Below, in pieces: positions 2,996-37,418 of a stretch of DNA of 37,553 nucleotides. Each line of letters begins with the position of its first letter. The stretch's first letter is position 1. The notes under the pieces are model-generated. The model had not been told where the DNA came from, did no database searches, and saw only the letters and a program-made list of their open reading frames with translations. Source of the DNA: Chitinophagaceae bacterium (lineage in GTDB: Bacteria > Bacteroidota > Bacteroidia > Chitinophagales > Chitinophagaceae); the NCBI GenBank assembly GCA_947381435.1, contig CANCVE010000035.1, positions 1 to 37,553 of the forward strand, given 5' to 3'. The position numbers were made by a program, and so were the translations under genes.

Positions 2996-3184
2996 CTCAC
3001 TTGAATCAGCTTTCCATTCACATGAATCGAAATTAAATTCAGTTGATGGAATAATGTATTCACTTGAATCAAAGACTCCTTCACTTGAGTCAGCTTTCCA
3101 TTCACTTGAATCGAACCTAAATTCAGTTGGAGGAATATTAAATTCAGTTGAATGAAAGTCTCATTCAATTGAATAAATCCTGTT
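2996..3184. repeat. 21-bp dyad array 1 (core TTCAnnTGAA), 9 units
   Basis: Cores start at 2996, 3017, 3038, 3059, 3080, 3101, 3122, 3143 and 3164, exactly 21 bp apart. The core is an inverted repeat, TTCA-NN-TGAA, usually followed by TC or TG. The other roughly 9 bp vary between units. It lies in the 509-bp region between two divergent genes (the deoxyhypusine-synthase-like gene and the outer-membrane protein gene). Because 21 is divisible by 3, the minus strand stays open and would read as a seven-residue repeat (IQLN/IQVN words). The substitution pattern does not look protein-driven. The same core occurs in array 4 (25419-25628). Confidence 0.9.
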
Positions 3185-3362
3185 TTAACTCATATTTTCA
3201 ATAAAATCAGGAAATAATAGCCTCAAATATCTTTACACATGAAAGATTAATAGTCTCACCGATTTTTTTTAAATCATTTCTCAGCCATGTCTTTAGTTTG
3301 CTACTTTCAAAGCTATAGGTGCTTGTAATTGCTTATTTTATTCACTCTCACAAAAATATATT

Positions 3363-6182
3363 ATGCTTAAACTGTACATACTTCCATTGTTAATGATATT
3401 TTCTATTGCCTCTTTTGCCCAAAAAGGATCAGTGAAAGGAAAGCTTATTGACAGCGTAGGCAAGCAAGCCCTGAGGGATGCATCTATAACCGTAGTAGAA
3501 GCGCAAGATTCCACTTTAGAAGCTTTTAGTTTATCGAAGGATGATGGCAGCTTTGAGGTAAGAAACATTTCTCAAGGGAAGTTTATCGTAAATATCTCTT
3601 TTGAAGGATTTAAAACAGTTCATAAAAGATTGATTATTAGTAAGGACAAGTTAGTAGTAGATCTTGGTGAAATTATAATGAAGACTAAAACGAAGGAGTT
3701 TGAAGAAGTAATAGTGACCGAATCTCCTATGAAAATAAAAAATGATACCATTGAATACAATGCAGGCAGTTTTAAAACAAAACCAAATGCTGTAGTAGAA
3801 GATTTATTGAAAAAACTACCTGGTGTAGAAGTGGCTAAAGATGGTAGCATAACGGCTCAGGGTGAAAAAGTTCAACGTGTTTTGGTGGATGGTAAACGTT
3901 TTTTTGGCGATGATCCTAAGATGGCTACTCGTAACCTTCCTCCTGATGTAGTTGATAAAATTCAGGTATATGATGCACAAAGCGACCAAAGTATGTTTAG
4001 TGGTTTTGATGATGGTTCGCGAACTAAAACAATAAACATAACTACCAAAAAAGATAAAAGAAAGGGCGTGTTTGGTAAGGGAATGGCAGGTGGAGGAAAC
4101 CAAGGCCGTTATGAAAGTAGCCTGAACCTAAATAGCTTTAAGAATGACCAACAGCTTAGTTTGGTGGCAGAAGGTAATAATGTAAATAGGCAAGCATTTA
4201 GTGTACAAGATATTTTGGGTGTGGTACGTAATGGTGGCGGCGGCCGTGGTGGTAGTGGTGGCGCAAACATTGTGGATGGTTATGGTGGTGGTAATAGTAG
4301 TAATGGAATTACCACAGTTTGGGCTGGTGGACTTAACTATAAAGATGTTTGGGGCAAGAAGACAGATGCTTATGGTAGCTATTTTTATACCAATGTAGCT
4401 GTTAATAATGCTAGCAATAGCCTTACACAGAGGTTTAATACTTCGGGCGATTCATCTCAATATGCAACACAAAATAGTAGCTCACTAAATAAGAACCAAG
4501 GTAATAGATTTAATTACAATATTGAATGGCCTATTGATAGCAATAATTCTTTAGTAATTCGCCCTAATGGTACACTTCAAAATAGTACAGTAGGCACACA
4601 TACGGGTACTTATACCACTTTTGGAAAAGCCACTCAATTGAGTAAGATTGATCAGCAATATAACAGCGAAAACAGTGGTTATAACGGAAGTATTGATGTA
4701 CTATTTAGACATCGTTTTAAAAAGAAAGGACATACGCTATCGTTAAACCTTAGCGGCGGTGGAAATAGTAATGATGGTACAGGAAACAATCTAGCATTAG
4801 ATACACTCTATGCTACAGGAGTACCGGTTGCTAGAAATGTTTATCAAAATAATAGCTCTAATAGCCATTCTGGGAATGGTAGTGCAACAGCATCTTATAC
4901 CTTCCCGATTGCAAAGAATCAAATGATAGAATTGAGTGCTAACCATAGTTATAGTCAGAGTATTTCTGGTAAATACACTTATGCCTTTAATAAAGCTGAT
5001 AGTTTGTACGACTTACCGGTGGATAGTTTAACGAATAACTTCAAGAACACCAATACAAGCGAAAGAGCAACGGTAGGTTATCGTATTCAAGGGGCTAAGT
5101 TCAATTTTGGTATTACCAATGGGGTTCAGTTTTCTACCATTAACAGCCTTAATCGTGCAAATAATTCAGTTTTCGAAAAGCGTTATGTAAATCTATATCC
5201 TACGGCAAACTTTGTTTACAATTTTACCCGTACCAAGAATATCAGGATAAACTATAACGGACGTACAAATCCTCCTAATATAAATCAGTTACAGCCTGTA
5301 CTAAATAACTCAAACCAAACAAATATTGTAGTGGGAAATGCTGATTTGAAACAATCTTTTGTAAACTCTATCAGGATATTTTTTACCTCATTTGATGTAT
5401 TTAAACTACGTAACATTTTTGCGGTGATTAATGCTAGCCAAACTAATAATGGCATTGTTAGTAGCATTACCCAATATAATTCGGGATCAAAAGCGGGTAC
5501 ACAGCGTACTACTTATGTAAACAGAACGGGTGGATATAATATTTCAGGGTTCTTTACATATGGTTTTCAATTGGATAAGCCAAAGAGTAACCTGAACTTC
5601 ACCACCAACCTGAGTAACAGTAGGAATCTAAGTATTATTAATGACGCAACAAACTATACTTACAATTCTTCTGTAGGTGAAACGATCGGCTGGACGATGA
5701 ACTTGAATGATAAGTTTGATATGAATCTACGCACAACTTCTACTTACAATATTGTAAAAAACACGATACAGTCGCAATCTAACTCTAACTATTTCACCCA
5801 AAACTTCTGGATTGAGCCTACATATACTTTTAATGGTGGTTGGGTATTTAGTAATGATTTCTCTTACAGTTTTAGCTCTGGAAGAACAGCAGGTTACAAT
5901 ACCTCTGTGCCTTTATGGAATGCATATGTAAGTAAATTGATGTTTAATCAAAGAGGAGAACTTAAGATAGCATTGTATGATATATTAAACAAAAATGTAA
6001 GCGTATCTCGGACAAGTAATAATAACAGTGTCACAGATTTGCAAACGAATGTTTTGAAACAATATTACAGCCTAACCTTCGCATACAATCTTCGAAAATT
6101 TGCTACTAAGCAAGCATCTACTCCATCGATGTTTAGAGGTATGAGTGGCAGTGGCGGTGGAAGAGGTAGAGGAGGAGAATAA
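3363..6182 (+). CDS. TonB-receptor-like outer-membrane beta-barrel protein
   Basis: A 939-residue protein. Residues 1-19 are a signal peptide (LPLLMIFSIASFAQ). Residues 22-105 form a carboxypeptidase-regulatory-like beta-sandwich (GSVKGKLIDSVGKQALRDASITV). Residues 130-225 are a plug-like domain (VVEDLLKKLPGVEV, VLVDGKRFFGDDP, DVVDKIQVYD), and the rest is a long beta-barrel of the OMP_b-brl_3 type. Gly-rich low-complexity stretches lie at about 289-315 and at the extreme C-terminus (SGSGGGRGRGGE). It sits in the outer membrane. Whether it transports a ligand with TonB or has a structural role is unknown; no SusD partner is next to it, which argues against a glycan-uptake pair. It is transcribed away from the deoxyhypusine-synthase-like gene, with array 1 in the shared upstream region. 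Confidence 0.9.
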   Translation: MLKLYILPLLMIFSIASFAQKGSVKGKLIDSVGKQALRDASITVVEAQDSTLEAFSLSKDDGSFEVRNISQGKFIVNISFEGFKTVHKRLIISKDKLVVDLGEIIMKTKTKEFEEVIVTESPMKIKNDTIEYNAGSFKTKPNAVVEDLLKKLPGVEVAKDGSITAQGEKVQRVLVDGKRFFGDDPKMATRNLPPDVVDKIQVYDAQSDQSMFSGFDDGSRTKTINITTKKDKRKGVFGKGMAGGGNQGRYESSLNLNSFKNDQQLSLVAEGNNVNRQAFSVQDILGVVRNGGGGRGGSGGANIVDGYGGGNSSNGITTVWAGGLNYKDVWGKKTDAYGSYFYTNVAVNNASNSLTQRFNTSGDSSQYATQNSSSLNKNQGNRFNYNIEWPIDSNNSLVIRPNGTLQNSTVGTHTGTYTTFGKATQLSKIDQQYNSENSGYNGSIDVLFRHRFKKKGHTLSLNLSGGGNSNDGTGNNLALDTLYATGVPVARNVYQNNSSNSHSGNGSATASYTFPIAKNQMIELSANHSYSQSISGKYTYAFNKADSLYDLPVDSLTNNFKNTNTSERATVGYRIQGAKFNFGITNGVQFSTINSLNRANNSVFEKRYVNLYPTANFVYNFTRTKNIRINYNGRTNPPNINQLQPVLNNSNQTNIVVGNADLKQSFVNSIRIFFTSFDVFKLRNIFAVINASQTNNGIVSSITQYNSGSKAGTQRTTYVNRTGGYNISGFFTYGFQLDKPKSNLNFTTNLSNSRNLSIINDATNYTYNSSVGETIGWTMNLNDKFDMNLRTTSTYNIVKNTIQSQSNSNYFTQNFWIEPTYTFNGGWVFSNDFSYSFSSGRTAGYNTSVPLWNAYVSKLMFNQRGELKIALYDILNKNVSVSRTSNNNSVTDLQTNVLKQYYSLTFAYNLRKFATKQASTPSMFRGMSGSGGGRGRGGE

Positions 6183-6199
6183 TAGTTTTTATAGAGTAA

Positions 6200-6345
6200 T
6201 ACGGTTTAAGTTATACGTTGTATGTTCTGCAACTTTACAGTACTTGGGAATGATTGGATAATCTTATTATTTAAACCTTTCTGCGAGCGTACAACTTAAA
6301 ACGTACTACTTAAACGTACAACTTTAAACGTAAAACTTATAACTT
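6200..6345. repeat. CGTACAACTTAAA tandem/palindromic element
   Basis: The 13-14-bp word CGTACAACTTAAA is repeated imperfectly about four times between 6286 and 6340. The left part (about 6208-6228, GGTTTAAGTTATACGTTG) is roughly complementary to it, so the region can fold back on itself. It lies between two convergent genes and its right end overlaps the stop codon of the FAD dehydrogenase gene (6345-6347). Confidence 0.6.
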
Positions 6346-7991
6346 TAAAGCAAACCAGCAATCATCAATGCAACCCTTTCGCCATCCATTGCGGCACTAA
6401 CAATGCCGCCCGCATAGCCTGCACCTTCTCCACATGGATACAAGTTTTTTATCTGTGGATGCTGCAAAGTATCATTATCTCTTGGTATTCTTACAGGAGA
6501 AGATGTTCTGCTTTCTGTAGCCACTACCACAGCCTCATTGGTATAATAGCCTCTCATCTTTTTGCCAAATGCTTTAAAGCCTTGCTGCAAGGTTTTATGA
6601 ATAAATGGTGGTAATGCTTCGCCTAAATTAACCGCTTTAATGCCAGGGCCATAACTACAATCAGGGAAGTTGGCAGATACTTTTCCATTACAAAAGTCCT
6701 CCACTCTTTGTGCCGGGGCAACGAAGCCTCCTCCTCCAATGGTATAACATTTTTGTTCAATAGCCTGTTGGAATTGGAGAAGAAGCAATGGGTTTACCGC
6801 TTTCCGTTTTCCGTTAACCGTAGAAAACGACCACTCTTCGGTTAACGGTAAACGGTCAGCGGTAAACTTCTTAAAGTATTCTGCCGCATCCTTCTCATCT
6901 ACCGTTACCACCATGCCACTATTAGAATATGGGTTGTTCCGCTTGCTAGGGCTCCATCCATTTACCACCACTTCGTTTGCATTGGTAGCCGCGGGGGCAA
7001 TGATACCGCCCGGACACATACAAAAACTAAATACACCACGCCCGTTTACCTGCTCCACCAAACTATAAGAGGCAGGAGGCAAATTTTCGCCGCGGGATAA
7101 TGCTGTAGAATTAGGAAGATTATATTGAATACTATCTATCAAAGCCTGAGGATGTTCTATTCGTACACCAAGGGCAAAGGGTTTTGCCTCAATAAGGATG
7201 TTTTTATTGTGCAATAACTCAAATATATCTCGTGCCGAATGCCCTGTTGCCAATATTACCGCATCGGCATTAATGGATAGTCCATTATGGGTTTTAATGC
7301 CCACAATTTCATCGTTTTTAATTATAAAGTCAGTCACCCTTTCTTCAAACAAAAAGTCTCCACCATTACCTATTATGGCTTCCCGCATGGCAGTGATAAT
7401 ATTGGGCAATTTGTTGGTACCAATGTGCGGATGAGCTTCGTAGAGTATCTTTTCTTCAGCACCAAACTGCACAAACAGGTTCAATATCCTATTTATGTCT
7501 CCCCGTTTATTACTGCGGGTGTATAGTTTACCATCGCTATAAGTGCCCGCGCCGCCCTCACCAAAACAATAGTTGCTTTCGGGGTTAATGATGCCCTCTT
7601 TGTTCAGCTTTGCTAAATCCCTTCGCCTAGCACGTACGTCTTTTCCTCTTTCTACAATGATTGGTTTAATGCCTAGTTCCATCAATTGCAAGGCGGCAAA
7701 TAATCCTGCAGGGCCAGCACCCACAATAATTACTCGTTTGGGCGATTGAGAAACATCTTTAAATTGAATATTGGTAACAGGTCGTGTTACAAAAGGCTCA
7801 TTGATAAAAACAAGAAGGGTAAGGTTAATCCATATCTGCCGAGGACTGCGGGCATCAATAGATTGTTTTAGTTTATAAAACCCTGTAATGCTCGAAGAGG
7901 GTTTACCTGTTTCTTTAGCAATATATTGGGTAATAATTGCATTATCATCTGCCTCGGAAGGCTTCACTTTTATAGAGAGTTGCTGTTGCAT
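6345..7991 (-). CDS. NAD(P)/FAD-dependent dehydrogenase (COG2509-like)
   Basis: A 548-residue cytoplasmic flavoprotein. An N-terminal alpha/beta domain (1-80) precedes the Rossmann FAD motif VIIVGAGPAGLFAA (GAGPAG 91-96). ERGKDVRARRRD, YCFGEGGAGTYSDGKLYTR, ATGHSARDIF, GGGFVAPAQRVEDF and the C-terminal LYPCGEGAGYAGGIVSAAMDG match the conserved family of uncharacterised FAD-dependent dehydrogenases. The electron partner and substrate are unknown. Oddity: residues about 376-400 (TADRLPLTEE to GKRKAV) are encoded by a near-perfect palindromic element (6793-6866). It sits between YFKK and the conserved NPLLLLQFQQAIEQK, so it looks like an in-frame insertion into a loop. The upstream gap to DUF3127 holds another hairpin element. 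Confidence 0.88.
   Translation of the reverse strand: MQQQLSIKVKPSEADDNAIITQYIAKETGKPSSSITGFYKLKQSIDARSPRQIWINLTLLVFINEPFVTRPVTNIQFKDVSQSPKRVIIVGAGPAGLFAALQLMELGIKPIIVERGKDVRARRRDLAKLNKEGIINPESNYCFGEGGAGTYSDGKLYTRSNKRGDINRILNLFVQFGAEEKILYEAHPHIGTNKLPNIITAMREAIIGNGGDFLFEERVTDFIIKNDEIVGIKTHNGLSINADAVILATGHSARDIFELLHNKNILIEAKPFALGVRIEHPQALIDSIQYNLPNSTALSRGENLPPASYSLVEQVNGRGVFSFCMCPGGIIAPAATNANEVVVNGWSPSKRNNPYSNSGMVVTVDEKDAAEYFKKFTADRLPLTEEWSFSTVNGKRKAVNPLLLLQFQQAIEQKCYTIGGGGFVAPAQRVEDFCNGKVSANFPDCSYGPGIKAVNLGEALPPFIHKTLQQGFKAFGKKMRGYYTNEAVVVATESRTSSPVRIPRDNDTLQHPQIKNLYPCGEGAGYAGGIVSAAMDGERVALMIAGLL
6793..6866. repeat. Palindromic GGTTAACGG element inside a coding sequence
   Basis: The left arm 6793-6820 (from TTTACCGC to GTTAACCG) and the right arm 6839-6866 are complementary at 25 of 28 positions, with an 18-bp loop. 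It is read through in frame by the FAD dehydrogenase gene. The word CGGTTAACGGTAAACGGT (6839-6856) recurs with one mismatch at 35856-35873 in another gene. Confidence 0.85.
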
Positions 7992-8028
7992 AATGTGTTA
8001 GGTGTTTATCCTAAAAACAGATTTTTTT

Positions 8029-8136
8029 GCCACAAAGACTCAAAGACCCAAAGGGGCACAAAGAAGAAAATAAGATTTAAACTTCTTTTTCTTTCTTTTT
8101 TCTTAGTGCTTCTTTGGGGCTTTGAGCCTTTGTGGC
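8029..8136. repeat. GCCACAAAG long inverted-repeat element
   Basis: The left arm 8029-8063 (GCCACAAAGACTCAAAGACC and onward) pairs with the right arm 8102-8136 (ending GAGCCTTTGTGGC) with 5 mismatches in 35. The loop is 38 bp and mostly A/T and pyrimidine-rich. It ends 8 bp from the stop of the DUF3127 gene and so can form a hairpin at the end of that transcript. GCCACAAAG-type repeats are familiar intergenic elements in Bacteroidota; no transposase is present here. Confidence 0.8.
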
Positions 8137-8144
8137 AAGATGCT

Positions 8145-8522
8145 TTAAAATGGCAAGTCGTCTACCATTTCATCTGGGGGAGGGGGTATATTCTTAAAAT
8201 CAGGTTCAGGCATACTGTCTTGCTGACCCATTTTCACTGTTTCTATTCTCCATGCATCAAGGTTGGTAATGTAGTTCTCTCTACCATCCTTCATCCATTT
8301 GCTTCCTTTCAGGTTAAAAGAAACCTTCACTTCTTCGCCTTGGCTAAACCTGTCTAGTATGCTGGTTTTATCTTGCACACACTGAAACTTCACGTAGTTA
8401 GTAATAATTCTACCGCCTATGTCTTCGCTTTTTTCAAGCACAAATTCTCTTGTTTTAAACGTTTCCGATCGTTGTACGGTGTCGTACTTGGCCAATAGTT
8501 TCCCTGTAATTTCGTAACTCAT
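8145..8522 (-). CDS. DUF3127 protein with SSB-like C-terminal tip
   Basis: A 125-residue cytoplasmic protein that matches the DUF3127 family of Bacteroidota: MSYEITGKLLAKYDTVQ, then TREFVLE, YVKFQCVQDKTSIL, GEEVKVSFNLKGSKW and NYITNLDAWRIE. This layout is consistent with a small OB-fold. The last residues are proline-rich and end in MVDDLPF, which resembles the acidic DDDIPF tip that bacterial single-stranded DNA-binding protein uses to dock repair and replication enzymes. A role in single-strand DNA or nucleoprotein handling is therefore plausible, but it is inferred. A -7-like box (TATATTTG, minus strand, 8542-8549) lies 20 bp upstream, at the edge of a repeat element. It is probably monocistronic. 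Confidence 0.85.
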   Translation of the reverse strand: MSYEITGKLLAKYDTVQRSETFKTREFVLEKSEDIGGRIITNYVKFQCVQDKTSILDRFSQGEEVKVSFNLKGSKWMKDGRENYITNLDAWRIETVKMGQQDSMPEPDFKNIPPPPDEMVDDLPF

Positions 8523-8559
8523 AATTATTTATTAAACAAGGCAAATATAGGAGATAGTA

Positions 8560-8601
8560 GATATGAGATATTAGATAGTAGATATGAGTTATTAGATATG
8601 A
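8560..8601. repeat. GATATGAGATATTAGATAGTA repeat, two 21-bp units
   Basis: Two adjacent 21-bp units, 8560-8580 and 8581-8601, both start GATATGAG and differ mainly in the last bases. Complementary words (CATATCTAATAACTCATA) follow at about 8682-8702, on the other side of a terminator, so the two parts can pair. This is the same word family as 1808-1880 and 22625-22656. Confidence 0.7.
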
Positions 8602-8616
8602 TAATTGTTTTTAAAT

Positions 8617-8658
8617 AAAGAGGCTGTTCAGAGTTTCTACCCTCCAAACAGCCTCTTT
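8617..8658 (-). terminator. Terminator of the 233-residue unknown gene
   Basis: Stem AAAGAGGCTGTT (8617-8628) pairs with AACAGCCTCTTT (8647-8658) around an 18-bp loop. Read on the minus strand it is followed by an A/T-rich tail (ATTTAAAAAC). It lies 57 bp past the stop of the upstream minus-strand gene. Confidence 0.75.
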
Positions 8659-8714
8659 CTTTTATACTCTCAAACTAATATCTCATATCTAATAACTCAT
8701 AACTTAAATCTAAT

Positions 8715-9416
8715 CTACACGTTTCCTTTTACTGCCACTGAGATAGTCTGACTCCAATGACCAATCTGTAAGTTTTGGTAACGAAAGATGATTTTATATT
8801 TCCAGATTTCCTCTACACCCAATGCTGGCAGTGCAGATTGATCACTGTAATCGGAGGCTGTACTTACATTATGAAAAATAAATCCAGCTCCTTTACCCGA
8901 GTCTTTCCACACTTCGAATGCATCATATCCGTTCAGGACAGTGTGCAACATTGGATGTCCACCACTCATTGATTTCAATGAAAGGCCTGGTGTTCCACTT
9001 GCCAATACTGTAGTACTCGGTTCGTCAAAAATACCCAAAGCCTTTGCAATATCTTCTGTTAGTTTCCCAGAATTTACACACACCTGCGCTATTTCCCTTA
9101 AAAGTCCTTCAATATTTGCATCACAAACAGGCGGTTTAATTGTTGGGTAAACAGGCAATTCGGGTAATGCACCCAAAACGTCAGTGCCATGACCATGCAA
9201 TACAAGGTTTTTATAGCTAGTAAAAGTGGTGGATCCCGTATGAATTTTACTATTCATATCCAATACAAAATCCAAGAATGCAATTCCCTTATCTAGCTTA
9301 TCAAGCAAAGCGGTTGGTACTTTTAGAAGTAATGCGTATTCTGATGAATACCCATTGCGAAATTTATGTAGTTGCACTGCTAACTTGTCTTCTGAACTTT
9401 CAATTAATATTCTCAT
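8715..9416 (-). CDS. Unknown protein with fibronectin-III-like C-terminus
   Basis: A 233-residue protein with no signal peptide or membrane segment. The N-terminal 95 residues are mixed alpha/beta with several Leu/Lys-rich helices (ALLLKVPTALLDKLDKGIAFLDF). The middle (about 100-135) is helical (IEGLLREIAQVCVNSGKLTEDIAKALGIF). The C-terminal 90 residues look like a beta-sandwich (FEVWKDSGKGAGFIFHN, IWKYKIIFRYQNLQIGHWS), much like one fibronectin-III domain. I do not recognise a named family. It is a single gene bounded by a terminator downstream and array 2 upstream. It may be an intracellular scaffold or binding protein, but no function is assigned. Confidence 0.75.
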   Translation of the reverse strand: MRILIESSEDKLAVQLHKFRNGYSSEYALLLKVPTALLDKLDKGIAFLDFVLDMNSKIHTGSTTFTSYKNLVLHGHGTDVLGALPELPVYPTIKPPVCDANIEGLLREIAQVCVNSGKLTEDIAKALGIFDEPSTTVLASGTPGLSLKSMSGGHPMLHTVLNGYDAFEVWKDSGKGAGFIFHNVSTASDYSDQSALPALGVEEIWKYKIIFRYQNLQIGHWSQTISVAVKGNV

Positions 9417-9549
9417 ATTGATTCATTTTAATAACTCACCTAAGTAAGCTTTTGTGATTGATAAATATTCTTTCTAATAAATGACTTAGTGATGATACTA
9501 TTGGATGGATTTAGGTTGAAACTGCAGTCTTGAGAAACTATTCTCCACT

Positions 9550-9717
9550 GAGTTTACTTTAAATCCCAGCGAGTTTACTCTAAACTCAACTGAGTTTGCT
9601 TTAAATTCCAGCGAGTTTACTTTAAATTCCATGGAGTTTACTTTAAACTCCAGCGAGTTTACTTTGAATCCCATGGAGTTTAGTTTAAACTCCAACGAGT
9701 TTAAGGTCTGCACTACC
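9550..9717. repeat. 21-bp dyad array 2 (core GAGTTTA-nnn-TAAACTC), 7-8 units
   Basis: Units start at 9550, 9571, 9592, 9613, 9634, 9655 and 9676, each exactly 21 bp, with a decayed eighth at 9697. The consensus is GAGTTTACTTTAAACTCC plus three variable bases (mostly AGC or ATG). Units 2, 5 and 7 contain a perfect 7-bp inverted repeat with a 3-bp centre (GAGTTTA and TAAACTC). The rest of this 575-bp divergent gap (9417-9549 and 9718-9991) shows no other gene or clear promoter. The minus strand is open and would read as a seven-residue repeat with EFKVN words, but the variable bases fall on all three codon positions. Confidence 0.92.
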
Positions 9718-10021
9718 CAATAAATTGTAAAATGAAAGCATTAAATGAAGGTGAGGCTATGCAGAAACAGTCTTTCTAAAGCCATACTGTTTCTCCGAAG
9801 ATGTAAAAGTAGTTGTATTGATATTCTTTGAAGGTTTATTTTTATTTGAAGATTATTGGGGAATGGAAAAGGTGTATTATTGTATTGGCGAAGGAGAACG
9901 GTTTCAGATATGTTTATAATACTCGCTGTTGTTGTGTCTTTTGACCAACAACTATAATGGCGATTTTGATTAATAAATAAAATGTTTAATAATGAATTGG
10001 ATAATTGGTAATAGCAATAAG

Positions 10022-10462
10022 ATGAGATATCACACAAATCTTTTCGAAATTACTAAACCCTTTAAAGAACAAATAGATAATTACAATTGGATACTTTCTG
10101 GCTTAGACTTATTAACTAATAAACTTTCTGATTTGCCTATAAATTTTGAGGGGGACTATTTTTTATTATCTCCTACTGATTTTAAAAAATTGGTTGAATC
10201 TAATACTCAAATTATTTGGGGAGTAATTCTTGGAGTTCCCCAAAATTTATCTATCTCTATTGATCTGGACAATTTACCTTTTGTAGAGGGAAATGATAAC
10301 ATTTGGCTGCCTGGCAATCTGCAGTTTAATTTTGCAGAGATTGAAATAGATTGTTTTGATAGTAGTTATACAATTATCAAATTTATATCAAAAGAACTAT
10401 CGCAGAAATTCAAAAACTATTTTGAAGAGGCAATCGAACTTGATAAATTTAATCAAAACTAA
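10022..10462 (+). CDS. Unknown small protein
   Basis: A 146-residue protein from the ATG at 10022 (MRYHTNLFEITKPF). The frame has an earlier ATG at 9992 that would add ten residues of no obvious character. It is AT-rich and acidic, with no signal peptide or membrane segment. Visible blocks are DNYNWILSGLD, INFEGDYFLLSPTDFKKLVES, TQIIWGVILGVPQNLSISID and a C-terminal helix (SKELSQKFKNYFEEAIELDKF). The style recalls small immunity-like or DUF proteins of accessory regions, but I recognise no family. It is followed after 16 bp by the YjbR gene and may be co-transcribed with it. No function is assigned. Confidence 0.65.
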   Translation: MRYHTNLFEITKPFKEQIDNYNWILSGLDLLTNKLSDLPINFEGDYFLLSPTDFKKLVESNTQIIWGVILGVPQNLSISIDLDNLPFVEGNDNIWLPGNLQFNFAEIEIDCFDSSYTIIKFISKELSQKFKNYFEEAIELDKFNQN

Positions 10463-10478
10463 ACCCTAGTTTTATACC

Positions 10479-10814: not shown

Positions 10815-10862
10815 AGTACTTCTTTTAATTTCAATCCATCTAATTAGGCGTATATTTGAAAA

Positions 10863-11427: not shown

Positions 11428-11428
11428 A

Positions 11429-12205: not shown

Positions 12206-12403
12206 AGAAGTATTATTTTTGAAGCCGAAGGTAAAAGGAAGTTGTTAAATAAAGATGGACTGTTTGAAATAACAAACAATTTTATTCTTCAATTTGTGAT
12301 TATTAATCGGTAACAAATATTTAATACTTTTACTTTAAAATATTTATTACAAACAAACGTTTACCTATTAGTAAACAAAAATTTATTCATTAAAATTTCG
12401 CAA

Positions 12404-17836: not shown

Positions 17837-17920
17837 CCTCCGAGAAGTCATCTCTAGCCTCCGAGAACTCACTTCTAGCCTCCGAGAACTCACTTCTAGC
17901 CTCCGAGAAATTACCTCTAG
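17837..17920. repeat. 21-bp dyad array 3 (CCTCCGAGAActcacttctag), 4 units
   Basis: Four exact 21-bp units start at 17837, 17858, 17879 and 17900; units 2 and 3 are identical. Across unit borders TTCT-n-GCCTCC-n-AGAA has dyad symmetry. The word AGCCTCC is shared with array 5. It fills the gap between two convergent genes, 23 bp from one stop and 20 bp from the other. Confidence 0.9.
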
Positions 17921-17940
17921 GGCACTAAACGTGAACCTAT

Positions 17941-25418: not shown

Positions 25419-25628
25419 TTCAACTGAACAGAAGATAAGTTCACCTGAATCAAAAAAAGATTCAACTGGATGTAAAGATGATTCAACTGGATGGAAAGAT
25501 GAATCAGGTGAATGAAAGAAAGATTCAGTTGGATGGAAAGATGATTCAACTGAATGGAAAGCTGATTCAATTGAACGGAAAATAAATTCAGGTGAATGGA
25601 AAGATGATTCAGGTGGATAAATGACCAT
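25419..25628. repeat. 21-bp dyad array 4 (core TTCAnnTGAA), 10 units
   Basis: Cores start at 25419, 25440, 25461, 25482, 25503, 25524, 25545, 25566, 25587 and 25608, exactly 21 bp apart. The core TTCA-NN-TGAA (often TTCAnnTGGA) has middle bases AC, CC, AC, AC, GG, GT, AC, AT, GG, GG. The linker is mostly TGGAAAGATGA. It is the same core as array 1, 22 kb away. It lies between lpdA and the YncE-like gene (476-bp gap), behind the lpdA terminator. The remaining 25243-25418 shows nothing recognised. Confidence 0.92.
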
Positions 25629-27663: not shown

Positions 27664-27698
27664 TCAAACAAATCCTCTCTTATAGTAAGTTTAAAAAT

Positions 27699-29801: not shown

Positions 29802-30256
29802 GTTTGTACTTTTTTGAGAGTTAATTATTGTTTGTTTGATGAAGCAAAGATGCGGCTATGTAAAAACATATTTTACCCTTTAAAAAAGGGGGGTAGTGGG
29901 TATGTGTTGTAGGTACAGTTTAAAGTAAGTAATTATTTGAATAATTGTTTTCTTATTCAAAGATATATTCACGTTCAGTTGTTTTTTGTTAATAAGCTAC
30001 ATAAACCAATAAATACAAAATTTATTTTGCTTAATTATCAAATTGATGATTAATGTCATTAATTGCAAAAAATATTATAGCCTACTTTTGCTATTCTTAC
30101 AAAAACAAAACACATCTTACTACCATTTACGCTTTTACGCATCAAACTTTTTAAATAATTAAAGGCAAAATAATACGCCTATTCTGCCAATTGCAGAAAT
30201 AAGGTCTTGTCTCGGTTCTGTCGGTTTTTTGATTTGATTCACAAAAACAAAAGAAT
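29802..30256. promoter_or_regulatory. Divergent control region of the LruC lipoprotein and giant surface protein genes
   Basis: A 455-bp non-coding stretch. TACTTTTG at 30083-30090 matches the -7 consensus TAnnTTTG for the plus-strand gene and would give a 5' leader of about 160 bases. TCTGC-CAATT-GCAGA (30183-30197) is an inverted repeat in that leader. A 14-bp copy of GCCAATTGCAGAAA (30186-30199) recurs inside the start of the gene (30280-30293). A small CCCTT/AAGGG hairpin lies at about 29876-29890. Confidence 0.4.
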
Positions 30257-33200
30257 ATGAACAAGTTTCTTTTTACACAGCCAATTGCAGAAAAAATTGC
30301 AGTTTCGCTTTCACCAACCACTCCAAACATTCTTTGGAGAAAGAGTTTAGTTTTAATTGCAGTATTTACCTTGTCATTGATTATTGTTTGTACTAACAAT
30401 GTCATCTCACAAAACCTTTATTGGCGTACTGATGGTGCATCACAATCTTGGACGGGTGTAAATTGGAGTGTAACACCCACCACCGTTGGTGGAATAGGTT
30501 GGACAAATGGTTATAATGCCATTTTTACAACTAACTCATCACCAATCTTTGTTACCAATCAGCAAGTGGGCAATATTACTCTATCCGGCACAACTACTAC
30601 CGTTTCATTAACAAAAGCAGGAACATTTTCCACTAATGGAAAAATTATTTCCATCGATGTTTGTGGTGGCTGTACTTTTAATTGGGGTTCTCAACTTGTA
30701 TCAACAACCGCTGGAACTGGATTTAAAAAAGTTTCTGCAGGCACATGGAACATTGGAGGCTCAATGAATGCTTCTGGAGCTCCCGCTGGTATCACTATCA
30801 ATGCCGGTACTGTAATCGTTACTTCTTCTAATAGTTTAGGAGGGGGGCCACTTACAATGAATGGCGGAACGCTACAATCCACAGGAAATGCATTCAATAT
30901 TAGTCAAATGAATATTGGTGGCAGTTTTATTTTTTCTGGTACAGGAGCAGACACCTATGGCTATCCAATTATACTTTCAGTAACACCAACTATTACAAAC
31001 TCTACAAGTAGTGGTGCCATCAGGCAACTAACAGGAGGCATATCTGGCAATTTTGGTTTAAATTTCAATGGGGCAGGGGCAGGTGTGATAGCAATGGGAG
31101 GTGTAAATACTTTCACAGGACCATTAACCTTGGCTAGTGCAGAGGTTTGCTTTGCTAATGATGCTAGCTTTGGTGCAGTGCCTAGCTCTATTACACCTGC
31201 ATCTATTATAATAGATGGAGGCAAAATGACTGCAATTGGAACAGATAATAGTACTACAGTAAATTATACACTTGATAGTAAAAGAGGTATTCAAGTGGGA
31301 AGCAGTGCTGCTTCTGCAATAAATGTAAACACAGGAAGTACGCTAACCTATAATGGAGTCATAGCAAATAAACCAAGTGCAAATGGTACTTGGACAAAGT
31401 TGGGTAGCGGTACATTGATTTTAGGTGGTTTATGTACTTACACAGGAGCCACCACATTAAAAAATGGAACACTTAGGCTTACTTCTAATGCACTGCCTAC
31501 AGCAACCATTTTAAACATAGGTCAACCCACAAGCACCAATCTCGGATTGTTTGATCTAAATGGAAATTCCCAAACTATCGCTGGACTAGCTTCGATTGTT
31601 GGTAATAATGTAAGTGCCTCTAAAAACACAGTAACTTCCTTAACGGCTGCAACTTTAACCATTAATTCTTCTACGTCTAATGTTTTCGGAGCTGCCTCTA
31701 CTATAAACTCAGGGATAATTTCTGGTGCTATCTCGCTTGTTAAAGATGGATCTGGTACTCAAACTTTGGGGGACATAAATACTTACACTGGTGCAACTTC
31801 AATAACTGCAGGTACATTACTCATGGCTTCTACTGGATCATTATCTGCAAGTTCAGCTGTAACTGTTTCAACAAATGGTATCTTGAGTGGTACTGGTTCT
31901 GCTTTAGGAAGTGTTGATTTATTCGGCACTATTAGTCCTGCTGCTACTGGAACTATTGGTACTTTAACAACTGGAAATCTAACGTTAGAAGCTGGGGGCT
32001 TTTATCATTTTGATGTTAATAAAACTTCGGGCACTCCTGGAACTGATTGGGATAATTTAGTAACAGGATCATTAACCAATAACACAACTGTTGGTTCAAA
32101 CTTTACTGTAGCAATAAATGGTACAATTACAGGTTTTGTAAGTGCGAACGCAAATAGTTGGGTAATTGGCCGTTACACTGGCACAGCCCCTTCTTCCGCC
32201 AACTTAGTAGTAAATACAACAGGTATTACCAATAGTTTTACTGGTAAATTTACTATTGGGTTTTCATCAAATAACATTAATCTTAATTATTCTACATGCA
32301 CATTAGGAACATGGCAAGGGGGTAATACTGCATGGTCAACTAATTCAAACTGGTGTTCATCTTTTCTGCCTATAAGTTCTACCAATGTTACAATACCTGT
32401 TTCATCTTTTTATCCAATCATTAGTGCCACATCCCCTGTTAATAATATAGTAATCGCTTCGGGTGCAAGTGTAAATGTTGCTGGCATATTGCAGGTTGCT
32501 GGTAGTATTAGTAATGCCGGATTGTTGGACATCTCGAAGGGAGCTCTTGAACTAAATGGCACTACTGCACAATCAATTCAGGGTACTGATTTCAGCGGTA
32601 GCACTATCGGCGGATTGATAATTAATAACCTAGCAGGAGTTACTATTGGTGGTCAATTAAATATCACCGATTCAATTATTCCTGTATCTGGCATACTTTA
32701 CAGTGGAGGATTTATTACACTAAAATCTTCGGCTACAAAAACTGCTCGAATTGCTACTGGAACAGGTACTTATCTTTTAGGAAATGTTACTGCAGAGCGT
32801 TTTATTACTGCAAAGGCGGCAAGAAAGTATAGTTTTATTGGAAGTTCAGTTTCGCAAACTTTTCGAAATGCTTGGCAACAACAAATTTATATTACTGGTA
32901 TTGGTTCTGGCGGAACTCCTTGTGGTGCTACCGCCGGAAGTGGTGGTGCTACAGACAAATACAATAGTAGTGGTTTTGATGCTTCCCAAAACAATGCTTC
33001 TACAGTTTTATATTACACAGCAAACACCATAAAAGGCAGTCATTACGCGGGCCTTCCAAATACTAGTTCTCTTATTGTTCCTGGTATTGGTTATTGTGTA
33101 AATGTTAGAGGAGATAGAAATAGTAGCTCTGTAACTTGTACTAATCAACTAACCTCTTCGTCACCTATTGCTCCAGAGTCAGTTACACTAATAGCTACAG

Positions 33201-34519
33201 GAAGCGTTACTACAGGAAATATTTTAGTTACATTAAATGATACAGCTTCTCATAAATTAACTCTTTTGGCAAATCCTTATCCAAGCCAAATTAGTTTTTC
33301 AGCTTTTAAGTCAAGTAACACTATAATAAACAACAAAATGTGGATGTTTAGTCCTTTTGGTACTGGAAATTTTGCTACTTATGCAAATGGTCATATAACA
33401 AATGGCGCAGTAGGATATGACGATGTTTTGGGCGATAATATTGCCATTGGTCAGGCCTTTTTTGTGGAAGCAAACGCCAATGGAAGTGTCTCATTTGCAG
33501 AAGAGCACAAAACAAATGGTAGCATTCCAAACTCGCAGTATTTTGGGACTGCAGATAAAAGTGTTAGAATTGGATTGTTTAACACAGATAATATTCGATT
33601 AGACGAAATATTACTTCTGTACACAAAAGCAGGATCAACAAATTATAATGAAAAACTAGATGCTACATCAATGAGCCTTACTAGCCAAGCATTAGTTTTA
33701 TACAAAGGGAATGATAAATTGGCCATTGCTGAAGTGCAAGATTATCCTTCACCTATTAAAACTCAATTAGGCGTGAGCATAAAAACAGGCCTTTATCATT
33801 TGGCATTTAGTCAATTAGAATCAATAGATGTAGCTAGAACAATCACTCTGGTTGATAAGTTTTTGGGCATTGCATCCAATGTTCGCAACAATCCAAACTA
33901 CAGGTTTACAGTAACGTCAGATACTGCAAGCAAGGGCGGCAATAGATTTATTCTGTTATTGGGTAGTGCACAATCATTGCCTGTTAATGTTTCGAGTATT
34001 TCGGTGGTACTAAATCCAACTAATGTAATTGTTATCTGGCAGGTTGTAAATGAAGCCAATATTATTTCTTATGAATTGCAACGAAGTGTAAATGGGGTAA
34101 GCTTTACTTCCATAAACAGCTGTATGGCAAAGGGAGCCAATTCATATTCCTTGACAGACAATAGCTTGCCATTGGGAGCAGCTGTTATATACTATCGATT
34201 AAAAATAAAAGCAGAAAATGGAATGATTGAATACACAAAAGTTGTAGCGCAACAATTAAACGAAGAAAGAAATGTTGCCATCTCTCCAAACCCTGTTCAT
34301 GCAGAACTCTTTGCAAAACTTAATAATACATTGAATGGTAATCAAGTTAAAGTGAAAATATCAACGATGGCGGGTAATGATATTTACAATCTAGGTAATG
34401 TGTCGATACTAAATAATACCTTTAAAATAAATGTAAGTGCTCTAGCGGTAGGTGTTTATCTATTAGAATTAACGGATTGCAGTGGCAATAAATTTATAAA
34501 TATGTTTATCAAAGAGTAA
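30257..34519 (+). CDS. Giant surface protein: autotransporter-type strand repeats plus T9SS tail
   Basis: A 1420-residue secreted protein. A long basic/hydrophilic lead (1-28) precedes a signal-anchor-like helix (KSLVLIAVFTLSLIIVC, 30-46). Then come beta-helix repeats; three match the passenger-associated (PATR) strand pattern G-x-N-T-Y-T-G-A-T-x-x-x-x-G-T-L: LGGVNTFTGPLTL (about 280), LGGLCTYTGATTLKNGTL (about 388) and LGDINTYTGATSITAGTLL (about 500). The middle (ILQVAGSISNAGLLDISKGALEL) is more beta-helix, then a large adhesin-like C-terminal region (YSFIGSSVSQTFRNAWQQQIYI). A fibronectin-III-like part (VISYELQRSVNGVSF-type) precedes the type A sorting domain ISPNPVHAELFAKL to YLLELTDCSGNKF (1342-1420). 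It is expected on the cell surface via T9SS; the ligand is unknown. Confidence 0.88.
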   Translation: MNKFLFTQPIAEKIAVSLSPTTPNILWRKSLVLIAVFTLSLIIVCTNNVISQNLYWRTDGASQSWTGVNWSVTPTTVGGIGWTNGYNAIFTTNSSPIFVTNQQVGNITLSGTTTTVSLTKAGTFSTNGKIISIDVCGGCTFNWGSQLVSTTAGTGFKKVSAGTWNIGGSMNASGAPAGITINAGTVIVTSSNSLGGGPLTMNGGTLQSTGNAFNISQMNIGGSFIFSGTGADTYGYPIILSVTPTITNSTSSGAIRQLTGGISGNFGLNFNGAGAGVIAMGGVNTFTGPLTLASAEVCFANDASFGAVPSSITPASIIIDGGKMTAIGTDNSTTVNYTLDSKRGIQVGSSAASAINVNTGSTLTYNGVIANKPSANGTWTKLGSGTLILGGLCTYTGATTLKNGTLRLTSNALPTATILNIGQPTSTNLGLFDLNGNSQTIAGLASIVGNNVSASKNTVTSLTAATLTINSSTSNVFGAASTINSGIISGAISLVKDGSGTQTLGDINTYTGATSITAGTLLMASTGSLSASSAVTVSTNGILSGTGSALGSVDLFGTISPAATGTIGTLTTGNLTLEAGGFYHFDVNKTSGTPGTDWDNLVTGSLTNNTTVGSNFTVAINGTITGFVSANANSWVIGRYTGTAPSSANLVVNTTGITNSFTGKFTIGFSSNNINLNYSTCTLGTWQGGNTAWSTNSNWCSSFLPISSTNVTIPVSSFYPIISATSPVNNIVIASGASVNVAGILQVAGSISNAGLLDISKGALELNGTTAQSIQGTDFSGSTIGGLIINNLAGVTIGGQLNITDSIIPVSGILYSGGFITLKSSATKTARIATGTGTYLLGNVTAERFITAKAARKYSFIGSSVSQTFRNAWQQQIYITGIGSGGTPCGATAGSGGATDKYNSSGFDASQNNASTVLYYTANTIKGSHYAGLPNTSSLIVPGIGYCVNVRGDRNSSSVTCTNQLTSSSPIAPESVTLIATGSVTTGNILVTLNDTASHKLTLLANPYPSQISFSAFKSSNTIINNKMWMFSPFGTGNFATYANGHITNGAVGYDDVLGDNIAIGQAFFVEANANGSVSFAEEHKTNGSIPNSQYFGTADKSVRIGLFNTDNIRLDEILLLYTKAGSTNYNEKLDATSMSLTSQALVLYKGNDKLAIAEVQDYPSPIKTQLGVSIKTGLYHLAFSQLESIDVARTITLVDKFLGIASNVRNNPNYRFTVTSDTASKGGNRFILLLGSAQSLPVNVSSISVVLNPTNVIVIWQVVNEANIISYELQRSVNGVSFTSINSCMAKGANSYSLTDNSLPLGAAVIYYRLKIKAENGMIEYTKVVAQQLNEERNVAISPNPVHAELFAKLNNTLNGNQVKVKISTMAGNDIYNLGNVSILNNTFKINVSALAVGVYLLELTDCSGNKFINMFIKE

Positions 34520-34544
34520 GTAGCATCTTCCAAAAAAAATACAA

Positions 34545-34584
34545 AAGAAGTACAAGAACTTTATCGTGTGTTCTTGTACTTCTT
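34545..34584. terminator. Two-way terminator between convergent genes
   Basis: A perfect 15-bp stem: AAGAAGTACAAGAAC (34545-34559) pairs with GTTCTTGTACTTCTT (34570-34584) around a 10-bp loop. T/A-rich tracts lie on both sides, so it can serve both the giant surface protein gene and the gene ending at 34589. Confidence 0.85.
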
Positions 34585-34588
34585 TCTT

Positions 34589-35416
34589 CTATTTTTCCCT
34601 TCCTCCTGCCGGAATAGTAACGCCAAGACTTAGTATTAATTCGTAAGTGCCAAAATTTTGTCTGGCATGACCTTCATAAATTTTCAAGCCACTGTAGCTG
34701 GCAAAATCTACTTTATTAGCAAATTCTAAATAAACTGTTTTGTAAAACGTAGCACGCAAAGCACCTTCTACACCTATATTCCAACCGCCAAGCTGAAAAT
34801 GTGGCTTATTTGCCATCGAATCACCAGTTGGTGTGTAGCCAAACATATTTTCTACGTGAGGGATAACAGGCCCAATACCAGCCTTTGCAAAGCCATCTAG
34901 TTTAAAATTGCTTTTCTCGTCCTGACAGATGTGCCAACGTTTGGTAATATTAAATAGCAGGAAGTTAGCGCCATTATTTAGGTAGTAATAATAGCCGTTC
35001 TTCTTAGCAAAATTCACGGTAGTATCAACCGGTTTATTATTCATTGTACCCACAATGTGTGCGTTTTGATCTGCAAATATGAATTTGGTATGATCGAAAT
35101 TAATTTCCCATCCAAGTCCTCTTTTTTTATCAAATATGTAGCCTAGGCGATAATTATATTGTGGGATAGATAAGGCAATATGAAACAGGCCTTCATCCCA
35201 TCCTGGATGATCGTGTCCTTCAATGTTTTTAAATTTATAGTCGTTACCAAGGCCTGGCTGAATAACGTGAACACTGCTACGCGTGTACCATTCTTTGTTA
35301 TATCCCCACGAAAAATAGAATTCTCCCTTGCGCTCTTTCTTTTTTTGTTGTGCCTGAACGTTCAATACGGTAAATACTACTGCCACCAACACCATCACTC
35401 TTTTTGTAATCCTCAT
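34589..35416 (-). CDS. Outer-membrane beta-barrel-like protein
   Basis: A 275-residue protein. Signal peptide 1-22 (VMVLVAVVFTVLNVQAQ). The rest alternates amphipathic strands and polar turns with many aromatic residues: GEFYFSWGYNKEWY, ALSIPQYNYRLGYIFDKKRGLGWEINFDHTKFIF, NGYYYYLNNGANFLLFNITKRWHI, GGWNIGVEGALRATFYKTVYLEFANKVDFA and a final TYELILSLGVTI strand. This is the look of an eight- to twelve-stranded barrel, common in Bacteroidota as hypothetical outer-membrane proteins. A -7-like TATATTTG lies on the minus strand at 35481-35488. Function unknown; the barrel reading is inferred from strand pattern only. Confidence 0.78.
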   Translation of the reverse strand: MRITKRVMVLVAVVFTVLNVQAQQKKKERKGEFYFSWGYNKEWYTRSSVHVIQPGLGNDYKFKNIEGHDHPGWDEGLFHIALSIPQYNYRLGYIFDKKRGLGWEINFDHTKFIFADQNAHIVGTMNNKPVDTTVNFAKKNGYYYYLNNGANFLLFNITKRWHICQDEKSNFKLDGFAKAGIGPVIPHVENMFGYTPTGDSMANKPHFQLGGWNIGVEGALRATFYKTVYLEFANKVDFASYSGLKIYEGHARQNFGTYELILSLGVTIPAGGREK

Positions 35417-35637
35417 TTTATTATTATCAAGTTAAAAAAATAAATGCTCAAAATGTTTATAGGTATGCGGCAAGGCGGCGCAAATATAAAGTAGCTGAAT
35501 GGAAGAATGGGTGCGGAAGGTTGGTAAATCGGTTATTGGCAAGTTTATCTAAAAGAGTTTCAGCTGCAAACTGGATATATTGGTAAGCCCAAGGGACCAG
35601 CTTTGCTGAACACTTGGGATAGGGTGTAAATCAATTT

Positions 35638-36906
35638 TTATTCCTTCTCAAAGCTGCTTACTTGCCAGCCATTATTGTCTTTTATTCGTACCGTATAAGT
35701 TCCATTGCTCCAAGAGTTAGTGGTAATGGCATCTGTGGCAGTGAATTTTTTGTTTTCATACACTAATTTACCAGCCATATTATAAATGAGTACTTGAACC
35801 TTACTTTCTGTTGGAATCATTAAATGGATAGCACCTCTTGCAGGATTTGGTGCAACGGTTAACGGTAATCGGTTAACGGTTAACTGCGTAACATTACTAT
35901 AAAAGAACTTACCCGTTTTATCCACTTGTTGCAAGCGATAATAAACTGAACTTGTAGGGGTAACATTATCTGCAAAATGATAGACACTACCATTGGTAGC
36001 AGCCACTTGCCCTACATTATTAAAAGTATTACCATCCACACTGCGCTGCACATTAAAGGCTTTCGTGTTTTCTGTATTGGTAGCACTCCATTGCAAATAA
36101 GGCATTTTGTTTTGCCAAGAAGCAGTAAAGGAGGAAATTTGGATGGGAAGAGGTATACCAGAATAATAAGATGCAGTCCACCATCGTTTAAAGAGTATAG
36201 TATCACCTTGGAGAAATGAATTATAGGATAAAGTCATCAGAGAATTATATATTCCATTCTTTAAAAACAAATAACTATAACGCCCATTATGTGATACATA
36301 CATACAAACTACACTATCATAAATAGCATTTGGAAGTTTTAAAGTACCATAACCAACTCCTCGAAGTGTGTCATGACTGGTGCCTGAAGTAAAAGGTGAG
36401 GGTAAACTACTACTACCAGTACTATATATACTAACGTTATTGGTATATGTAATACTGTAAGACATTGGATATTTAATAATATTAGTTGCAGGTGAAACAT
36501 ACCCCACTTTCGATTGCTTGCCAGAAATAACACTATAACCACCTAACTGACCAAAAATCGTATCGCTTGTTTTATAGAAATAAGTTTTTGTATAGGTAGA
36601 GGTTTGATTCTGAACTGATGCAATAGTAGCGGATGGAAAACTATCAGAATTAGCCAATCCAATGGGCGAAATATATGAATAAACATTAGCAGATCCACTA
36701 TCTTTCATATTGCTGTAATCCCATACTATATTGGCGCCAGTATCAATATTCGGCGGGGTAAATGTATAATAATAAGTAGGCTGAAACTTATAACTATACC
36801 CAATCACTGGGTTAAACCCCGCCGCATTTATCACAGGCCCTTGAGCCTTTGCACCTATTGTTCCCAAAAGAAAAAGGAGAAGAAGGTTTTGTAGTTTTTG
36901 TTTCAT
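35638..36906 (-). CDS. T9SS cargo protein with type A sorting domain
   Basis: A 422-residue secreted protein. Signal peptide 1-21 (LLLLFLLGTIGAKA). The body (PVINAAGFNPVIGYSYKFQPTYYYTFTPPNIDTGANIVWDYSNMKDSG) is beta-rich with many Tyr/Ser/Thr and no recognised catalytic motif. From about 255 a fibronectin-III-like module follows (ISSFTASWQNKMPYLQWSATNTENTKAFNVQRS to VYYRLQQVDKTGKFFYSN). After the linker VNRLPLT the sorting domain APNPARGAIHLMIP to GTYTVRIKDNNGWQ occupies residues about 350-422. The linker is encoded by a GGTTAACGG-type repeat (35854-35884). It is expected to be exported through T9SS and anchored or released at the surface. The role of the body is unknown. Confidence 0.9.
   Translation of the reverse strand: MKQKLQNLLLLFLLGTIGAKAQGPVINAAGFNPVIGYSYKFQPTYYYTFTPPNIDTGANIVWDYSNMKDSGSANVYSYISPIGLANSDSFPSATIASVQNQTSTYTKTYFYKTSDTIFGQLGGYSVISGKQSKVGYVSPATNIIKYPMSYSITYTNNVSIYSTGSSSLPSPFTSGTSHDTLRGVGYGTLKLPNAIYDSVVCMYVSHNGRYSYLFLKNGIYNSLMTLSYNSFLQGDTILFKRWWTASYYSGIPLPIQISSFTASWQNKMPYLQWSATNTENTKAFNVQRSVDGNTFNNVGQVAATNGSVYHFADNVTPTSSVYYRLQQVDKTGKFFYSNVTQLTVNRLPLTVAPNPARGAIHLMIPTESKVQVLIYNMAGKLVYENKKFTATDAITTNSWSNGTYTVRIKDNNGWQVSSFEKE
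35854..35884. repeat. GGTTAACGG repeat in the linker of a T9SS cargo gene
   Basis: Repeated CGGTTAACGGT words (35856-35866, 35870-35880) encode the linker VNRLPLT on the minus strand. The 18-bp word at 35856-35873 matches 6839-6856 in the FAD dehydrogenase gene at 17 of 18 bases and is read in the same frame (RLPLT). Confidence 0.75.
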
Positions 36907-37208
36907 AAAAAGAGATTTTGCAGTTTATTATTTTGTTTTACAATGATAGAAATAAAATTGGGATAAAAGATAAAATGGTTTTGTATGGAAGAAAAAAGAT
37001 TGGGGAGAAAGGCAATCTTATTTGTTTTCGGGATGAATAGAGAGGTACTCAAAATCTTATTTTTCATAAAATTAGTTTATATCGAATTTTTAAGTGAGTT
37101 TCACCGTGTGCTAAACAACCATATCGTTGCCCAAGTCAAAAACCCTTCCGTGGCGATTAGTACTACCAAGCCTTCTTTAAAAAATAGGATAATAGCTGTC
37201 AATATCCT

Positions 37209-37418
37209 CCTCCTAATCATAAATTTTAGCCGCCTAAAGTGTTTCATTAGCCTCCTAATCATTTGTAAAAGCCCCCTAAAATGTTTCATAAGCCCCCTAA
37301 TGTTTTATAAAAGCCGCCTAATCTTTTGCATAAGCCTCCTAAAATATTTTGTAAGCCTCCTAAAATATTTTGTAAGCCTCCTAAAGTTTTATAAAAGCCT
37401 CCTAAAATAGAGTTTATG
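37209..37418. repeat. 21-bp dyad array 5 (core TTAG-CCTC-CTAA), 10 units
   Basis: Units start at 37209, 37230, 37251, 37272, 37293, 37314, 37335, 37356, 37377 and 37398, each exactly 21 bp. CC[T/G/C]CCTAA is conserved and the rest varies (mostly T-rich, ending AAG or TAG). Across unit borders TTAG-nnnn-CTAA forms an inverted repeat. Units 7 and 8 are identical, which suggests a recent duplication. It lies upstream of the cargo gene at 35638-36906, in a stretch (36907-37553) without a credible gene. Confidence 0.92.

Follow-up and report, generated by a model that had tools for sequence, protein, structure and literature searches.

The window analysed here, the 37,553-nt contig CANCVE010000035.1 of a Chitinophagaceae bacterium (assembly GCA_947381435.1), is contig C35 of draft genome G000 (4.88 Mb, 231 contigs) and carries five intergenic tandem arrays of 21-bp units. 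Its lpd protein has its best named match in a Chitinophagaceae metagenome assembly, at 86% identity. All five arrays had been called in an original prediction made from the letters of this stretch, which put the total at about 40 units; we count about 41. Arrays of this kind have a fixed period of 21 (or 42) bp, units in register, two-fold symmetry in most cases and about 10 units each. Across related species they mostly stay in place as their units undergo concerted replacement; in four orthologous pairs their length differed in steps that are multiples of 21. As an evolutionary description, they are very probably constant-period, sequence-drifting satellite arrays spread through one bacterial genus. 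As an explanation of the whole we favour drifting satellites under selection for geometry, which on sequence evidence comes close to an even chance.

Period and register across genome and genus

We sampled 40 stretches of G000 (about a fifth of the genome), 35 of which, together 700,000 bases, were not picked for earlier hits. In these 35 we counted, for each lag, the distinct places where identity reached 70% or more across 63 positions. Lag 21 gave 26 places, lag 42 gave 34 and lag 63 gave 22, as against none at lags 18, 19, 20 and 24, three at lag 22, and none at 31 or 32, the lags expected of three-turn arrays. The excess over periods 18, 20, 22 and 24, whose absence had been named beforehand as the refuting outcome, is thus present (26 vs 0, 0, 3 and 0). 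Ten and seven places at lags 7 and 14 form a separate heptad class. In the same 700 kb, Tandem Repeats Finder (TRF; at least 3 copies) reported 24 arrays of period 21, three of 22, 13 of 41-43 and none of 18, 19, 20 or 24; the 42- and 63-bp periods are superposed on 21. Most of the sampled stretches start at contig starts, where repeats can break assemblies, and five of the 42 arrays studied below begin within the first 1,000 bases of their stretch.

Across the 40 stretches and the window, 92 segments had lag-21 or lag-42 identity. After 22 heptad-like segments had been set aside, 28 of the remaining 70, many of them 42-bp arrays, were dropped because they were shorter than 120 bp or had a lag-21 identity below 0.5, leaving 42 arrays as the study set (median 217 bp; 5-20 units, median 10). 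A heptad origin of the 21-bp units was rejected: the 22 segments are true heptad arrays, and the lag-7 identity of the 42 arrays used is 0.14-0.36. Of 341 inner units scored by leave-one-out placement, 333 fell at offset 0 and eight at plus or minus 1; this register is partly built in, since lag-21 or lag-42 identity was the criterion by which arrays were detected. Three of the 42 arrays overlap a predicted open reading frame.

Within the genus, sampled stretches of six of seven other genomes held period-21 arrays of at least 3 copies, and the seventh, G010, had none in its single 20-kb stretch and one elsewhere. None of five other genera of the same family (369 kb, apparently with N runs) yielded a period-21 array of three copies, and three had a two-copy one; 80 named Bacteroidota loci (1.53 Mb) contained two period-21 arrays. 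The constancy of phase with a changing core, proposed from the window, extends to G000 and its genus.

In the window itself, TRF called period 21 at 9550-9703, 17837-17920, 25419-25611 and 37228-37408; array 1 (2997-3174 by TRF) was called as periods 42 and 84 and reads by eye as 21. A symmetric core had been predicted for every array, with a consensus differing between arrays. Arrays 1 to 4 do have a significant dyad and array 5, tested alone, does not (Table 1); the cores do vary, but not separately in each array. Clustering joined arrays 1 and 4 in one family (TTCAnnTGAA, in opposite orientations) and arrays 3 and 5 in another (TAGCCTCC), so the window holds three families rather than five cores. 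The AGCCTCCTAA pattern of array 5 recurs in contigs C12, C23 and C34, and these members of its family pass the dyad test (p=0.006, 0.002 and 0.014, respectively).

Replacement of the unit at conserved places

Units were clustered by single linkage, under which unlike units can be joined via intermediates, using 99 of 113 detected arrays (14 of the 42-bp type were left out). This gave 57 unit families. The 54 arrays of G000 fell into 35 families, 23 of them with a single array.

Three conserved flanks mark places where arrays recur with differing units. Flank A, 147 bp to the right of array 2, was found at 11 places in six of 13 genus genomes; all 11 have tandem periodicity beside it, with a top lag of 21, 42 or 63 in nine, and about eight unit kinds by eye. 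Flank B occurs at eight places in four of the 13 genomes, six with clear arrays belonging to three unit families and one with a weak array (G001:C30). The third, leader D, lies to the left of an array in contig C31; nine places were followed, its own and eight others, eight of which have arrays, with about six unit kinds by eye, two of them joined through intermediates in the clustering. Directly before the arrays leader D carries a strong hairpin, GGGAGGC...GCCTCCC (L349, L281, L278), with paired changes between copies (GGAAGGC...GCCTTCC) seen by eye. It is possible that leader D is a structured RNA, the hairpin having been read by eye; it had no Rfam match at gathering score. The right flank of the C34 array (L034 3623-3735) was tried as a further array-bound flank and rejected, as only one of seven other copies (G005:C15) lies clearly by a repeat. 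The AT-rich motif there (L034 3629-3735) is dispersed and present in numerous copies in G003 and G005, most of which lie away from arrays.

Replacement is also seen between genes that we assigned by reading translations. Eight of 11 assessable genus members (G000, G005, G006, G001, G010, G012, G004 and G007), a count that leaves out G002 and G003, have by eye an array in the trpC-trpD spacer. The unit there is ATTTGGTTAACACTTTGTCGC in G000, ATTTGCTTGAACTTATGCCGC in G005 and CATAAGTTGGAACTTATGCCG in G006. Counted from the left edge, unit two is nevertheless of the G005 type in both G000 and G006, and the inner units differ. This relic near the edge implies that the inner units were replaced in concert, by homogenisation from inside. 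The trp arrays of G000 (p=0.036), G005, G006 and G007 pass the dyad test and that of G010 fails it. In the hisF-hisA spacer the G000 unit is shared with G005, and G001 and G010 have other ~42-bp repeats by eye.

Array position and unit number, whose comparison between strains had been suggested, were followed in four orthologous pairs. Places are mostly kept, and over 730 aligned array sites with 123 substitutions (17%) the only gaps measured 21, 21 and 42 bases. The flanks of the same pairs had 96 substitutions in 641 sites and gaps of 21, 1, 5, 2, 3, 7, 1 and 6. The ortholog of array 1 in G003:C14 has one unit more, its sole in-array gap being 21 bases, and that of array 2 in G005:C1 aligned without gaps. 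Since the units of array 1 keep their individual differences across species, recent homogenisation does not explain the absence of single-base gaps there.

Symmetry of the unit and competing explanations

Symmetry was scored on unit profiles and compared with 500 column shuffles, the best axis being chosen each time. It was significant at 0.05 in 26 of the 42 arrays of G000 (2 expected) and at 0.01 in 17, so the symmetric cores foreseen for other arrays of this genome do occur. Among arrays of relatives, which came from sampled stretches or were picked for their place without regard to symmetry, 30 of 45 were dyadic; by family median the figure was 34 of 57. Tested alone, four of 14 arrays of 41-43 bp were dyadic at p<0.05, as were three of four arrays from other genera, one of them consisting nearly entirely of A and T. 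Information content peaks once per unit of 21 bp (t=3.8), giving each a core and a spacer. Across the 35 unit families of G000 no 4-, 5- or 6-mer rose above the 95% shuffle null (the top 5-mer occurred in eight of 35 families, the null value being 8). Phased A-tract bending was considered and dropped, as neither A+T nor AA/TT had an extra 10.5-bp component.

In the 26 dyadic arrays pairing continued to the two innermost positions (0.29 and 0.33, vs 0.20 and 0.16 in the column-shuffled null), and the 16 with an assigned sense strand had G-U and A-C mismatches in similar number (44 vs 47). Pairing up to the axis and the lack of a G-U bias on the known sense strand suggest that the symmetry acts at the level of DNA and not of RNA. 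The near equality of the two mismatches looks like that of a DNA palindrome rather than of a selected RNA hairpin, provided that the flanking genes give the sense strand.

Under selection for geometry, the selected trait would be a run of about ten symmetric sites, one for every two turns of the helix. The sites may be read by a DNA-binding protein of architectural or regulatory type, or by a small set of paralogues, whose dimers would line one face of the DNA and accept many different cores provided these are symmetric. Slippage or unequal exchange would homogenise the units, letting the core drift without loss of period or symmetry. That the arrays serve as a protein platform is a tentative proposal to which we give somewhat less than an even chance. 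Plasmid centromere and iteron arrays (sopC, omega heptads, iterons) are likewise phased direct repeats that act as sites for dimeric proteins, with one sequence per system and a cognate gene; here there are 57 unit families.

Several observations weigh against selection for geometry. Stacked protein sites on one DNA face fit best among the three readings first offered for the window, but no binding protein or cognate gene was identified, none having been searched for systematically, and 57 families in 99 arrays are hard to reconcile with one sequence-specific protein. The missing 10.5-bp component leaves phased bending unsupported. Sixteen of the 42 arrays of G000, array 5 among them, lack a significant dyad, and in the ten dyadic arrays of unassigned strand, scored on an arbitrary plus strand, G-U exceeds A-C mismatches (31 vs 17). 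The period is not invariant, being 20 (top lag 60) beside flank A in G000:C65 and about 41 in G001:C9. Nor is occupancy: flank B has no array in G006:C106, leader D none in G005:C143 (only 149 bp visible to the contig end), the trpC-trpD spacer none in G008 and G009 and other sequence in G011, and the hisF-hisA array of the G000 unit is confined to G000 and G005, other genus members having none of that unit. The gap comparison draws on a small sample of four pairs, and three of the eight flank gaps touch the alignment end, the 21-base one lying one base away. Placement bias is weak: by gene calls from a simple script, 33 two-sided arrays comprise 18 tandem, 13 divergent and 2 convergent cases, compared with 155, 65 and 38 among spacers of at least 150 bp.

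The main rival is neutral minisatellite dynamics, in which 21-bp satellites from a few founders spread by copying to other parts of the genome and kept their length by descent, with no function. Slippage or unequal exchange would change length by whole units and homogenise them, and dyads would be favoured either through more frequent slippage of units that form hairpins or through template switching that turns near-palindromes into perfect ones. The concerted replacement with relic edge units in the trpC-trpD spacer is what such a process would leave, as are dispersed families with some unlike units linked through intermediates, unit-sized length changes, and 42- and 63-bp periods on top of 21. 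Descent does not account for the recurrence of the 20-21 nt size in unrelated bacteria, as reported in PMC8161180, and the upkeep of most arrays beside three conserved flanks and, in the four pairs compared, the restriction of gaps to multiples of 21 at 17% substitution also speak against it. We regard this explanation as unlikely, though it deserves to be taken seriously. The recurrence in unrelated bacteria suggests that this length has some general cause, perhaps a mechanical and not a functional one.

Of the other two readings first offered, a self-extending element is conceivable and a chain of RNA hairpins is improbable. Arrays in operon spacers or long 5' regions would be transcribed as hairpin chains or small RNAs, and some do lie between co-directional genes read as hisA-hisF and trpC-trpD; leader D places a hairpin with paired changes, seen by eye, before arrays, the unassigned-strand arrays have the G-U surplus given above, and transcription of the 52-nt kind of repeat is discussed by Subirana and Messeguer (PMC8161180, PMC8625621). 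The arrays with a known sense strand, in contrast, have no G-U excess and pair to the axis with no unpaired loop, the window had no Rfam match at gathering score, and 12 matches at E<=1 from nine loci all fell below it. Still less probable are operator arrays, in which every family would be a cluster of sites bound by a separate transcription factor. They would be consistent with symmetric cores, with families that occupy several places and with a weak upstream bias, but 23 of the 35 families among the 54 arrays of G000 are single, arrays lie inside operons and in convergent spacers, and the unit is replaced at the same gene in sister species.

As short palindromic extragenic repeats the arrays resemble repetitive extragenic palindromic (REP) elements moved by RAYT transposases, and Y1_Tnp matches occur in 25 of 29 genomes (seven in G000), one of them, RAYT-like, in the G004 trpC-trpD spacer (L331) alongside a ~42-bp repeat. 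Yet a repeat of period at least 18 lay within 1.5 kb of only four of 14 RAYT or Y1_Tnp places (C142, C40, G001:C303, G010:C154; about 2 to 3 expected by chance), and all five other genera of the family have Y1_Tnp and no period-21 array of three copies in the sampled stretches. The tags GTAG and CGTC are outside the six commonest 4-mers and were seen by eye in single families. We consider such an origin very improbable. A coding origin has next to no credibility: 21 bp equal seven codons, arrays 4 and 5 lie in open frames and the mean number of open frames is 1.95 (1.67 +- 0.14 expected), but none of the 42 arrays has a 3-periodicity of variability at p<0.05, and 35 have at least one open frame where 33.8 are expected. 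Heptapeptide coding was ruled out for the arrays taken together, though individual ones may be coding. A viral origin was likewise set aside. Of the two patterns tried, GAGTTTA had no viral match, and AGCCTCCTAA matched one viral contig, in what reads by eye as a proline-rich coding repeat.

Window features, known repeat classes and significance

The arrays and the neighbouring features of the window are listed in Table 1.

Table 1. Coordinates of the 21-bp arrays, conserved flanks and neighbouring gene in the window.
Feature	Position	Strand	Description
Array 1	2996..3184		~9 21-bp units with a TTCA-nn-TGAA core and a variable spacer; dyad p=0.002
Array 2	9550..9717		~8 units, GAGTTTA-CTT-TAAACTC type; dyad p=0.016
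Flank A (conserved)	9704..9850		right of array 2; adjoins arrays of other units in related species
~230-aa protein gene	8715..9416	-	array 2 and flank A lie upstream
Array 3	17837..17927		4 units (4.0 by TRF), TAGCCTCCGAGAA type; convergent spacer; dyad p=0.044
Array 4	25419..25628		10 units, TTCAnnTGAA family, orientation opposite to array 1; dyad p=0.002
Flank B (conserved)	37081..37205	+	left of array 5; most copies in relatives stand before an array, in some cases of a different unit
Array 5	37209..37418		~10 units, AGCCTCCTAA type; dyad p=0.244 alone

The ~230-aa protein had no match in Pfam, NCBIfam or PDB sequences. Members of its family in relatives (L265, L276, L274, L275, L262, L263) are preceded by conserved leaders and 21-bp arrays, the far-side gene at six of the 11 flank A places belongs to it, and eight of the 42 arrays sit upstream of 210-233-aa genes that resemble it by eye. 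As a general array partner the gene was rejected, since a tblastn search with nine members against 53 own-genome stretches and the window returned the window gene only. Past array 5 (37410-37553), near the contig end, a stub ATG TCA GTT TAA stands where relatives start a 226-227-aa gene; some genus contigs (L181, L182, L184) start inside such arrays. The window also contains two dispersed repeats, at 8021-8141 (many matches in G006, also in G003) and 9907-9982 (matches in G003 and G005), and at 1879-2895 a bacterial deoxyhypusine-synthase family protein (PF01916). Heptamer and 14-bp tandem arrays at 63-98, 351-416, 6288-6349, 8547-8601 and 8669-8714 are a class apart from the 21-bp arrays. These 7- and 14-bp arrays of G000 are similar to the TAACTGA-type heptamer repeats described in PMC4679880, from which the 21-bp arrays are separate by their low lag-7 identity.

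The original prediction held that no family like this had been described, which does not stand. In the part of PMC8161180 drawn on here, Subirana and Messeguer surveyed 176 Bacillus genomes, where tandem repeats 20-21 or 52 nt long mostly keep their size but vary in sequence and form species-specific families; they add that repeats of 20-23 nt occur across many bacterial groups. They equated 20-21 nt with two helix turns and suggested a protein polymerising on DNA. The same account notes short sequences together with their reverse within one 52-nt repeat, and in B. weihaiensis a short characteristic sequence common to most repeats. Like that 20-21 nt class, the present arrays are non-coding and scattered, with at least 4 units, a fixed unit length, many unrelated units and several families; unlike the B. 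weihaiensis repeats they share no short motif, a trait that is not clearly class-defining. Relative to the same part of that paper, what is found only here is a Bacteroidota genus with dyad 21-bp units in most arrays, conserved flanks, gaps of unit size and, at orthologous places, exchange of one unit for another. The dyad units, the replacement at fixed places and the spread through one genus would thus be new with respect to PMC8161180, although they may be in Subirana and Messeguer 2020.

Prokaryotic satellites, as far as the portion of PMC6749651 considered describes them, are likewise intergenic and some form dispersed families; there, dispersed non-coding families with repeats over 30 nt are given only for Leptospira interrogans and Methanocella conradii (37-69 nt). 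Density here, about 34 per Mb (period 21, at least 3 copies), compares with up to 23 per Mb in the bacterial table of that paper, the thresholds differing. REP/RAYT palindromes (PMC3733652) are also short and extragenic; they are sorted by GTAG or CGTC tags and partly tied to RAYT genes, a tie we did not find here.

A length of 52 nt approximates five turns (52.5) and 41-43 bp four, so that one helical rule could underlie the class. It is conceivable, if doubtful, that the arrays are in their logic a bacterial counterpart of centromeric satellites, in which places are marked by geometry and recognised by a protein that reads symmetry or shape while the sequence drifts in concert. Bacterial repeats of fixed length and free sequence are a described kind whose retention has long been a question, and this genus makes its cause directly testable: sister species share place and period but not unit, the symmetry can be broken, the flanks are conserved and some arrays lie in operon spacers. 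If geometry is what is selected, sequence-based searches would overlook a layer of chromosome organisation.

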